Source of the DNA: Elusimicrobiota bacterium | Lineage (GTDB): Bacteria; Elusimicrobiota; Elusimicrobia; UBA1565; UBA9628 | Assembly: GCA_016218575.1 (NCBI GenBank) | Contig: JACRDN010000019.1 | Span: 248,001 to 312,000, forward strand | Direction: 5' to 3' | Length of the DNA stretch: 64,000 nt | Shown: one piece after another, positions 49,018 to 57,933 of the stretch | How positions within the stretch are numbered: position 1 is the first letter of the stretch | How the letters are laid out: every line of letters starts with the position of its first letter | Program-made: the position numbers and the translations under genes | The notes under the pieces: model-generated | Told to the model about the DNA's origin: nothing | Seen by the model: only the letters and a program-made list of their open reading frames with translations | Databases searched by the model: none

Positions 49018-50382
49018 CTAGAACCGACCGGAGGCTTCGAGGGCGTACTTGTGGGCGCTGCCATGGGCCGCGTTCGAGGCGGAACCCACGCTGAACAGGG
49101 CCGCGGAGGCGGAGAGGGTGAAACGGTCTTGGATCTGGTAGCGCAGCCTAAAATCCCATTCCGAGCCCAAATTGCGGGGTCCCGCGCGTATCCTGTCGGC
49201 CTGGAACAGGAAATAATCCAGGTCCAGGGCCACTCCCTTGTAGGCCGGAGGGGTAAAGCCCCCTCCCGCCACCAAGATGCCGCTGGCGTTGGCGTTGAGG
49301 CCGCTGGAGACCGCGTAATTGCCCCCCCAGGCGTCATAAGGGGAGGCCCCGAAGAAATCGCCGAAGCCGCCGCGCTCGAGACCGTTGTAGCGGTGTCCCC
49401 GGGTTGGAAAAAAAGCCTCGTCGGTGGTGGGCGTCCCCGGCTTGTCTCCGCTGGCTCTGGCCACCGAGAGGCGGGCGATGCCTTCCCCGAGGCGGGGAAG
49501 GTTCTGCTTCCATTTGGCCTTGAATACCTGCGCGTCTCCTTGATAGGTGACGTGGTTGGCCAAGGGAACGCCCCCGGTGGGGGTTCCCGCCCCCCGCTCC
49601 AAGGCGAGCTCCCCATCGAAGACCAGGGGGCCGTAGCTCATCTGGTAATGCAGGCTCGTGAAGCTCCGCATGGCCTTCGAAATCATGCAATTCTGGCCCA
49701 CCCAGGTCGTGTTCGCGCAGCCGAACACGGTTTGGACGGTTCTATCCCGCTCCAGGAGCTGGCTTAACTGCCAGAGCCCATCGGTGGGCAGGCTCAGGGA
49801 CAGCCCCAGGAGATCCAGGTTGTTGGGCGCCCCAAACAGGGGGTTCTTGTCCTGGAAGACGAAGCCCTCGAGCTTGAGCCCCCCCCATGGGAGCTCCCCT
49901 CCGGCCTTGATTCCGGTGAGCCCGGCCCCGTCATCATCGAGGAGGAGCCCGCTTCCCAGCTTGTAGCTCTGCCGCCCGAAGACGGCCTCGAGATTCTTGC
50001 CGAACAGATGGTTGGCCTTGATGTAGGCGTTCTCGAAGAAAGGGGTGAAGTTCGAGCTCGGGTAGATGGCCGCCGCCCTATCAAAGGGCGCTGAGAGGGT
50101 CGCGGTCGAACCAGAGACCCCCAAGGCGCGCAGGAGGATGGCCACGTCCAGGCTCGGCTCCTCCGCCCCCGCCGCGTCTTCAAGAGCGATCTTTCGCACC
50201 GCGAACCCCAGTCGGGCGTCGTTCTCGATGAAGGAGCGCTTGTTGGAGGAGTTCGCCGAGCTTAGGTCCAGGTTCGTGTAGGAGAGGGCGCGCAGGCGGT
50301 AGGCGGCCGTGACGTCGAGGTTGGAGGCCCGCGCCGAGGCGGCCAAAAACGGCAGGACTAGGGCCAACGCTGGGGCGCGCAT
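49018..50382 (-). CDS. Outer-membrane beta-barrel (alginate-export/porin-like)
   Basis: 454 residues from ATG 50382 (a Met six codons upstream is less likely because it precedes the signal peptide MRAPALALVLPFLAASARA). The mature part has alternating hydrophobic strands starting LDVTAAYRLRALSYTNLDL, a VFGRQSYKLGSGLLLDD turn typical of AlgE-like porins, and ends in Phe (YALEASGRF), the usual BAM signal. No plug or TonB box seen. It probably forms a channel for small organic solutes. Confidence 0.8.
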   Translation of the reverse strand: MRAPALALVLPFLAASARASNLDVTAAYRLRALSYTNLDLSSANSSNKRSFIENDARLGFAVRKIALEDAAGAEEPSLDVAILLRALGVSGSTATLSAPFDRAAAIYPSSNFTPFFENAYIKANHLFGKNLEAVFGRQSYKLGSGLLLDDDGAGLTGIKAGGELPWGGLKLEGFVFQDKNPLFGAPNNLDLLGLSLSLPTDGLWQLSQLLERDRTVQTVFGCANTTWVGQNCMISKAMRSFTSLHYQMSYGPLVFDGELALERGAGTPTGGVPLANHVTYQGDAQVFKAKWKQNLPRLGEGIARLSVARASGDKPGTPTTDEAFFPTRGHRYNGLERGGFGDFFGASPYDAWGGNYAVSSGLNANASGILVAGGGFTPPAYKGVALDLDYFLFQADRIRAGPRNLGSEWDFRLRYQIQDRFTLSASAALFSVGSASNAAHGSAHKYALEASGRF

Positions 50383-50419
50383 TTGAAAAAATCCTATCAA
50401 ATTTGCCAGACACTAAAGA

Positions 50420-51755: not shown

Positions 51756-53315
51756 TTAGAACCTAACGCGCATGTCCATGTAGGCCAAGGTCGCCGGGTT
51801 GGTCGGCTGCTGGGAAACTGCCGTCCCGCCGCCGGCTGCAACGCTCTGGTTTCCTTCCTTGATCAGCCCGCCGGGCTGATAGGTGCCCCAGCCGAAGCCG
51901 AGACCGATGTTGTCCGAGTGCTTCCACTCGAAGTCCAGGTCTACCTCGGAGCCCACATGCTTGTTGCCGCCCAAGGGCCTGCGATTGCCCTCGGCGGTCA
52001 AGAGCTTCTGGGCGCTGAAGTCCCAGTAAGAAAGCCCGGCCGTGAGCTTGGCCAAAGAGGCGGGATTGACCTTCACGCCGAAGCCGTAGAGGACGGCGTT
52101 GGAGAGGGTCGCGGGGGAGATGCCGGTCGCGCCGACTCCATTGGGAACCAAGGCGCCCAGAGCGGCGCCGCTGGCGTTGGTGAAGCGCCCGGAAATGCTG
52201 CCCGGGCGGTAGTCGCCAGCGATGGCCGTGAACTGCTCGTTGGTGGCCGAGCGGCGATCCCCGGCTCCGGTGCCGTAGCCGAACTCGCCCCAGGGGGTGA
52301 CGGCTCCGACTCCGTTGACCTCGGCCTTGTACCCGCCGTTAAGCAGGAAGGCAAAGCCGGTGTAGGTCTTGGCGCCGTGGGTGGCCACGGTTCCGGCCAC
52401 GCGGTTGTCGCCGAAGTTCTTGGCGATCTCGCCCTTGACCCAGGCTCCGCCCATGGTGGCCTTCACTTTGGCTCCCAGGACGTAAAGGTTGTCGTTCTTG
52501 CCTCCGGCGACGGCCGCCGCGTCGGAGGAAGGAGCGCCCAATCCGCCGTTGGCCGCGGCCGCGCTGCCGTTCTGGGTCTGGCGGTTCCAGAGGTAGACGG
52601 CGGGGTGGACATTTTCATGCCGCTTGCAGGAAAGGACGAGGCCGCGGACGTTGATGCTGTTCTGAGGAATACCGCCGACTCCGGCTCCGATGCTGGTCTT
52701 TCCGACCAGGGCCGTGAGGCCCATGTTGTCGTTGGCCCAGTCGAAGCGCGCCGCGTCGATGGCGGTCACGTTCATGCCGTACATGGCCTTGTCGGAGGGT
52801 CCGAAGTAGATGATGAGGTCCCCGGAGTCGCCGAAGAACTGGCGGCCCACGGTGACGTCAGCGTCGCCCGCGAGTTTGTCGATTTTTACGTTTGCCTGAT
52901 CCACCGCGATGCGGCCGAGCACGTTGGACCCCGCGGTGCTCAGGGTCTCGCTGCCGCCCGCGGCGGCCGTGCCCTGCACGTAGTCGGAGCCGGCCACGCC
53001 GCCTGTGCCCCAGACCCTGTTGTTCTTGCGCAGGGTTACCTTGGAATGGACATCGTCCAAGAGGTCCCAATCCAGGTTCACCATGAGCCGGGTCTGAGTG
53101 TCGCTGATGCGGTCATTGTTGTTGAACGAGGCCGGGACTACGGATCCGGCACCGAGCGGGTTGGCCCGGGTCGCGAAGTCCACGGTGTTGCGTGCGGCGG
53201 TGGCTTGTATGTCGAGTTGACCGCTGACCTTGAGGTTCTTCAGCAGTTCGGCGCTAGCCTGGCTATACGGAAAGAGCATCGCCAGGGCTAACGTAAGTCC
53301 CAGGAGCTTCTTCAT
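51756..53315 (-). CDS. Major porin-like outer-membrane protein
   Basis: 519 residues. Signal peptide MKKLLGLTLALAMLFPYSQASA; mature part of Gly/Ala/Asn-rich amphipathic strands and long loops, ending in MDMRVRF with the terminal Phe. Strong Shine-Dalgarno AAGGAGG. Its own strong promoter, long leader and strong terminator suggest high expression, as for a major porin. No family signature beyond the barrel pattern. The +-strand 457-residue frame opposite is a shadow. Confidence 0.82.
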   Translation of the reverse strand: MKKLLGLTLALAMLFPYSQASAELLKNLKVSGQLDIQATAARNTVDFATRANPLGAGSVVPASFNNNDRISDTQTRLMVNLDWDLLDDVHSKVTLRKNNRVWGTGGVAGSDYVQGTAAAGGSETLSTAGSNVLGRIAVDQANVKIDKLAGDADVTVGRQFFGDSGDLIIYFGPSDKAMYGMNVTAIDAARFDWANDNMGLTALVGKTSIGAGVGGIPQNSINVRGLVLSCKRHENVHPAVYLWNRQTQNGSAAAANGGLGAPSSDAAAVAGGKNDNLYVLGAKVKATMGGAWVKGEIAKNFGDNRVAGTVATHGAKTYTGFAFLLNGGYKAEVNGVGAVTPWGEFGYGTGAGDRRSATNEQFTAIAGDYRPGSISGRFTNASGAALGALVPNGVGATGISPATLSNAVLYGFGVKVNPASLAKLTAGLSYWDFSAQKLLTAEGNRRPLGGNKHVGSEVDLDFEWKHSDNIGLGFGWGTYQPGGLIKEGNQSVAAGGGTAVSQQPTNPATLAYMDMRVRF

Positions 53316-53532
53316 TCTATTTCTGTCCTCCTTAGTTTCGTAAGCCCCACCCGAGGCGGGGATACGTTTGCTTATACCCCGCTTCTGGCGGGGCCTACGT
53401 TTTTTGCAGAGGAGTTCCGCAAGCTAGGCTTGCGCCTCAGTTGACGGCGGCGCACTGGACCGCAAGCTCTCTCTCCGGTCGGCTTGCGGCCTTGCATCTG
53501 CGTCAGTTGCACTGAGCCTCCTTCATTGTAAC
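53316..53532 (-). promoter_or_regulatory. Structured ~217-nt leader of the porin mRNA
   Basis: Between the predicted start of transcription (~53532) and the porin Shine-Dalgarno lie several hairpins. Two GC-rich ones are adjacent: CCCCGCC-AGAA-GCGGGG (about 53376-53393) and CCCCGCC-TCG-GGTGGGG (about 53345-53361). The arms of the two can also pair across (outer CGTAGGCCCC with GGGGCTTACG, and inner GCGGGG with CCCCGCC), so two mutually exclusive folds exist. The upstream ORF stops between them. Further upstream is CGCAAG-CCTAG-CTTGCG. Confidence 0.5.
53372..53512 (-). CDS. Possible 46-residue upstream ORF in the porin leader
   Basis: GTG at 53512, four bases after a perfect AAGGAGG (53523-53517), opens a 46-codon frame rich in Arg/Lys/Gln that ends with TAA at 53374-53372, between the two alternative hairpins. 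It could be a regulatory leader peptide. An even shorter frame (ATG AAG GAG GCT..., 8 codons) overlaps its Shine-Dalgarno. Confidence 0.35.
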   Translation of the reverse strand: MQLTQMQGRKPTGERACGPVRRRQLRRKPSLRNSSAKNVGPARSGV

Positions 53533-53538
53533 GGCCTG

Positions 53539-53568
53539 ATTCTAATAAACATATCCATTTTGTGTCAA
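53539..53568 (-). promoter_or_regulatory. Strong promoter of the porin gene
   Basis: Minus strand TTGACA (53568-53563), 18-bp spacer, TAGAAT (53544-53539). The surrounding 53530-53660 is AT-rich with no gene. Confidence 0.75.
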
Positions 53569-57844: not shown

Positions 57845-57927
57845 CAAAGGATTTAAAGACACGGGTAGGACCTTTGGCCCGGCTCGGCCTAGACCATTCG
57901 GCCCTCGACCCCGGCCGGCGCGGGGCC

Positions 57928-57933
57928 TACAAT
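57928..57933 (+). promoter_or_regulatory. -10 box of the exported 172-residue protein gene
   Basis: TACAAT followed by exactly six bases and GTG 57940. No clear -35. Confidence 0.45.

Follow-up and report, generated by a model that had tools for sequence, protein, structure and literature searches.

The major porin-like gene of the window, a 64,000-nt stretch of an Elusimicrobiota genome, is preceded by a structured leader that is best read as a new leader RNA, common to many Elusimicrobiota of one class and located before major outer-membrane proteins. The RNA is conserved, it contains three helices (P1-P3), it is linked to outer-membrane genes, and two of its short strands (a and b) and the Shine-Dalgarno sequence (SD) are complementary in turn. 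We consider it slightly better than an even bet (probability about 0.5) that this is a cis-acting leader RNA which sets outer-membrane protein translation by occlusion and release of the SD. The relevant features, all on the minus strand, are:

51756..53315, minus strand, outer-membrane porin-like gene, 519 aa, with a weak, below cut-off match to Pfam Alginate_exp
53326..53331, minus strand, SD of the porin, GGAGGA
53339..53344, minus strand, P1 3' strand, CUUACG
53345..53361, minus strand, hairpin P3 (CCCCG/UGGGG)
53377..53393, minus strand, hairpin P2 (CCCCGC/GCGGGG)
53394..53399, minus strand, P1 5' strand, CGUAGG
53408..53414, minus strand, strand b, CUCCUCU (anti-SD), able to pair with either strand a or the porin SD
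53518..53522, minus strand, strand a, AGGAG, which mimics an SD and lies 10 nt from the inferred 5' end
53372..53512, minus strand, GTG open reading frame of 46 codons, probably not a gene
53539..53568, minus strand, promoter TTGACA-18-TAGAAT, read directly (-35 at 53568-53563, 18-nt spacer, -10 at 53544-53539)

The label "porin" is a reading of the gene product, as its Pfam match is sub-threshold. Transcription probably starts at about 53532, giving a leader of 217 nt up to the ATG at 53315. An initial annotation of this DNA had described this promoter and a leader of about 217 nt, and both are present on re-reading of the sequence; by eye, the leaders of relatives have the same kind of promoter in front. 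Predicted folding energy of the window leader is -96.6 kcal/mol, versus -74.8 +/- 4.4 for shuffled sequences (z -4.9; 0 of 200 as low), and the last 122 nt alone give z -6.25. The two GC-rich hairpins noted earlier can indeed re-pair with each other: the minimum-energy fold is a rod in which P2 is re-paired with P3. The predicted fold also contains a pairing absent from the initial annotation, that of the porin SD (53331-53326) with UCCUCU at 53413-53408.

Families of the phylum were labelled f1, f2 and so on, the window genome belonging to f1. Porin relatives occur in 35 of 56 genomes of the order and, by profile search, in 176 of 340 genomes of the phylum. To locate the element itself, we used a profile (R1) made from eight cores of f1 only. 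It matched 22 of 57 genomes at E <= 0.01. At E <= 1e-6 there were 17 sense-strand places in 16 of the 57 genomes, all of them directly upstream of the porin, with two places in G029 before two porin copies. Since the element is nearly palindromic, it gives a weaker R1 echo on the opposite strand. Weak single matches were obtained in G010, G015, G025, G034 and G041. The window genome has the porin leader as its sole place at E <= 0.01. Downstream of the porin lies a second outer-membrane-like gene (49018-50400), likewise with a sub-threshold Alginate_exp match, and R1 found no P1-P3 leader before it.

The element is not universal. Porin leaders of L003, L010, L026 and L027 are without P1-P3, and L018 keeps P1-P3 without strands a and b. 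No such element was seen in the rows read for f7, f9, f12, f13 and f15; two hairpins of similar shape occur in L107 (f12). Within f14, L118 and L146 (both of genus g45) and L133 are without it.

On comparative grounds, the 3' half of the leader is a stem, P1, that closes the two hairpins P2 and P3, all kept by compensatory changes. The common core found upstream of the porin in relatives is CGTAGGCCCCG-loop-CGGGG-linker-CCCCG-loop-CGGGGCTTACG, with an alternative ATCCC form. A MAFFT alignment of 18 cores (A1) misplaced P2 and P3, and pairing was therefore counted on helix arms; the 3' arm of P2 and the 5' arm of P3 were picked for best pairing, which biases the count towards structure. Counted were 28 cores of f1, f2, f3, f4 and f10, some of them from close relatives (the core of L014 and L068 is identical to that of L011 and was counted once). 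Four variant f2 leaders (L006, L008, L019 and L024) were excluded because of an insert in P2. This insert is a conserved G+C-rich stretch of about 45 nt, GCCGCCGAC...GCCGGCGGCG, perhaps a further domain.

Mean pairing over the 28 cores is 5.93 of 6 for P1, 4.86 of 5 for P2 and 4.96 of 5 for P3. Two-sided changes include C-G to A-U, C-G to U-A and G-C to C-G. In P2, position 2 is C-G in 21 cores and A-U in five, position 3 is C-G in 22 and U-A in five, and position 5 is G-C in 19 and C-G in nine; position 5 of P1 is G-U in 21, G-C in five and A-U in two. These few helix forms largely track families and thus stand for few independent events. For P1, counted on 19 of the 28 cores, 112 of 114 cells pair on the sense strand versus 95 of 114 on the antisense strand; after sliding, 21-53% pair. 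It is therefore the RNA of the sense strand that is conserved.

Both separate hairpins and the rod may occur. The rod arms pair on average 4.79 and 4.71 of 5, nearly equal to P2 and P3 as separate hairpins, re-pairing being kept because P2 and P3 change together, and RNAalifold on alignment A2 preferred the rod. P2/P3 are favoured on one arm or other in L025, L031, L071, L073, L078 and L089, although P3 of L071 and P2 of L078 themselves pair in only 4 of 5 positions; in L089, P3 is one pair shorter on both sides, which favours separate hairpins. L091 is the opposite case, with 4 pairs in P2 and 5 in both rod arms.

Known RNA families do not account for the leader. Rfam returned only tRNAs for the whole window at gathering threshold; for the window leader at E up to 10 the best hit had E 0.99 (14 bits versus a threshold of 60), and leaders of six relatives gave no match at E 0.1. 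The earlier statement that no known riboswitch was recognised agrees with Rfam, and the suggestion of a structured regulatory RNA is borne out by compensated helices and conserved alternative P2-P3 pairing. We found no report of such a leader RNA for Elusimicrobiota in the largely open-access literature covered.

Further, we examined the strands around this module. By pattern, an AGGAG-like strand a is present in the first 40 nt of 65 of 69 leaders, and 62 of 69 have both strand a and a b-like strand before P1 (the b pattern also takes CUCU and CUUCU). Leaders lacking a or b by pattern (L006, L008, L010, L018, L025, L029 and L071) were excluded from ensemble folding. In L008, the SD may be enclosed in a separate small hairpin (GAGGU-CAU-ACCUC), perhaps another way to hide it. 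Predicted b-SD pairing exceeds 0.5 in 39 of the 62 folded leaders, and a-b pairing in 11. The best-partner and permutation tests additionally left out L131 and L152; of the 60 leaders remaining, 55 have a best SD partner that overlaps b.

For the 26 leaders of f1-f3 and f10, a leader's own b-SD combination beats shuffled partners in 2000 of 2000 permutations and its own a-b combination in 1994 of 2000, relatedness being ignored in both. No partner-permutation signal was obtained for the 34 leaders of f14, because a, b and SD hardly vary there. An equally good anti-SD arises in at most 10 of 100 dinucleotide shuffles for 7 of 33 leaders outside f14 versus 30 of 36 in f14. The window leader taken by itself is not above chance (as good in 71 of 100 dinucleotide shuffles). 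Considered as a candidate riboswitch-type platform, the a/b/SD triad is conserved in position, and in the window leader alone it does not exceed chance. When strand a was blocked in silico, mean b-SD pairing rose from 0.63 to 0.78 and SD openness changed little, from 0.35 to 0.31, in a folded set made up of leaders with both a and b by pattern. Nine leaders that precede other outer-membrane genes were compared in the same way: in six, nothing pairs with the SD region better than b does, and L159, L160 and L161 each contain a stretch that pairs more strongly than b. By eye, the b-SD match of L154 and L155 extends to nine positions when G-U pairs are counted.

These observations suggest the following mechanism, in which switching between a-b and b-SD, its direction and its signal are what we infer. 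Strand a (AGGAG), near the 5' end, would be made first. Strand b (CUCCU) stands just before the three-way junction P1-P3, and the SD just after it, so that the module would bring b and SD side by side. With a paired to b, the SD would be free and protein would be made. Binding of a by a factor, or refolding of the RNA, would release b, which could then pair with the SD across the P1-P3 module and stop translation. Re-pairing of P2 and P3 into the rod may be part of the same change.

Expression platforms of translational riboswitches consist of anti-anti-SD, anti-SD and SD, that is of mutually exclusive strands. The porin leader may resemble them, with three putative strands of this kind at the SD, but has no recognised ligand domain and no Rfam match. 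Partial similarity is also seen with the ompA RNA thermometer of Yersinia pseudotuberculosis, where structure in the 5' UTR may, according to PMC8245352, repress translation until opened. Both concern an outer-membrane protein mRNA whose 5' UTR structure possibly represses translation; the porin leader differs in belonging to another phylum and in its three-way junction and additional anti-anti-SD strand.

A possible, if doubtful, extension is a 5' domain with a metabolite, an ion or a protein as its ligand, as in a riboswitch or a protein-binding autoregulatory leader, with a, b and SD as its expression platform. It is partly nested in the SD-occlusion reading, since only a signal is added. 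The case for sensing comes mainly from f14, where the leader is longer and its 5' domain is strongly conserved in primary sequence. GCUCUGU is found in 32 of 32 aligned rows (alignment A5, from which four leaders with long inserts were excluded), and GCGGAGCGCC and GGCGCUUCUCC are nearly invariant. RNAalifold predicts 11 pairs in this domain, of which one has changed on both sides, and its covariation term is zero; the domain thus rests on sequence conservation, not on covariation. A candidate f14 pseudoknot, 5'-GCUCUGU/GCGGAGC, was dropped, as its sides do not covary and it is broken in L106 and L114 (by eye).

Attachment of the leader to different outer-membrane protein families likewise fits sensing. 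A profile of the f14 5' domain (R2) matched 50 places, spread over 46 of the 340 genomes and confined to f14. The porin follows at 36 of them and an outer-membrane-type gene of another family at 13; a contig end cuts off the remaining one. The Pfam model OMP_b-brl was over cut-off in three of four tested non-porin proteins and below it in the fourth (L163); the remaining non-porin genes were judged by likeness. In L155 the gene after the leader is broken after 40 codons. Although none of its cores comes from f14, R1 recovers the f14 core where it should lie in many R2 loci (best E 5e-4), which supports a probable common origin of the f1 and f14 cores. In L165, P1 reads CGUCGGCC/GGCCGGCG, by eye another compensated change. 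Against sensing, the 5' domain of f1-f3 is short and variable with no conserved unpaired pocket seen by eye, and the missing Rfam match also counts against it.

Rather unlikely in our estimate, though like sensing a serious rival, is a pure mRNA stabiliser, in which the 5' hairpin and tight fold would shield an abundant outer-membrane mRNA from 5'-end-dependent decay; there would be no switching, and the identity of a and b would be incidental. The 5' UTR of E. coli ompA is such a stabiliser, a structured leader with a hairpin near its 5' end. The porin leader is similarly structured, with a 5'-proximal hairpin before an outer-membrane protein gene, and differs in its conserved three-way junction and anti-SD strand. 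In favour of this rival are a first helix that can begin some 10 nt into the presumed transcript, an unusually stable fold, helices that retain their pairing as their sequence changes, and downstream genes for outer-membrane proteins, likely bulk products (their abundance is a guess). Stabilisation, however, needs neither an anti-SD strand at a fixed place nor the invariant GCUCUGU of f14, and the SD is predicted to be buried in most leaders.

As to origin, P1-P3 might descend from two GTAG-tagged REP palindromes in inverted arrangement (a REPIN), taken up and kept in the leader, which we regard as improbable. GTAG-tagged REP dimers, as described in PMC3733652, are inverted hairpins that may form separately or combine into a single large stem. 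P1-P3 shares the GTAG foot, the paired inverted hairpins and this apart-or-one-stem folding: two G+C-rich hairpins, inverted relative to each other, have GTAG at their base, and this tag is present in 25 of 28 cores (L016, L028 and L029 have GTGG or GTGA). Y1_Tnp-type genes, which code for REP-associated transposases, occur in 24 of 28 genomes of the order, with as many as 12 in one. A dispersed CGTC-tagged palindrome of similar shape in G047 and G050 also speaks for this origin. Unlike REPINs, P1-P3 is a single copy at a fixed position before one kind of gene, with sense-strand pairs kept by compensation. It is not dispersed in the window genome, where besides the single place at E <= 0.01 one further match, a half-unit at 57909-57930, lacks the second hairpin; identification as REP/REPIN by dispersal, which implies many copies per genome, was accordingly rejected there. 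P1 of L165 has lost the GTAG tag and still pairs (by eye).

The dispersed palindromes of G047 and G050 (L055-L063), CGTCATTCCCGC...GCGGGAATGACG, account for five weak R1 matches in each genome. They look like the CGTC-tagged REP super-family, described along with GTAG-tagged REPs in PMC3733652.

Very unlikely is translation-coupled attenuation through the 46-codon open reading frame, as the initial annotation had proposed. The frame, its Shine-Dalgarno (GGAGG, 4 nt upstream) and its TAA stop between P2 and P3 (53374-53372) are all real and where it had placed them. A start codon 2-12 nt past strand a, however, occurs in only 8 of 65 leaders with that strand, the window's included, so strand a is the better reading of the frame's "perfect Shine-Dalgarno". 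Leaders of about 114-150 nt in many relatives leave little or no space for the frame; its length is within chance, a closed frame of at least 46 codons arising in 270 of 2000 mononucleotide shuffles of the window leader; and no U-run terminator was seen by eye in that leader. Comparison with relatives, which the annotation had named both as check and as possible refutation, therefore went against the reading frame and in favour of the helices, which relatives keep with compensation. CsrA-type control via the GGA motifs read directly in a and SD can be set aside, a CsrA gene having been found in one of 37 genomes searched and not in the window genome as assembled, and that one genome (G001, locus L003) having a porin leader without the element.

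A wider, tentative reading, which we hold at rather below even odds, is a new modular regulatory RNA family, a class-wide controller of major outer-membrane proteins set on unrelated barrel genes, with a 5' domain sensing a metabolite or envelope state. If true, a structured leader RNA would be tied to a role, the output of outer-membrane protein, and not to one gene family. Barrels of several families carry this leader in a single bacterial family, which suggests a signal common to them and makes this a question that reporter constructs can test.
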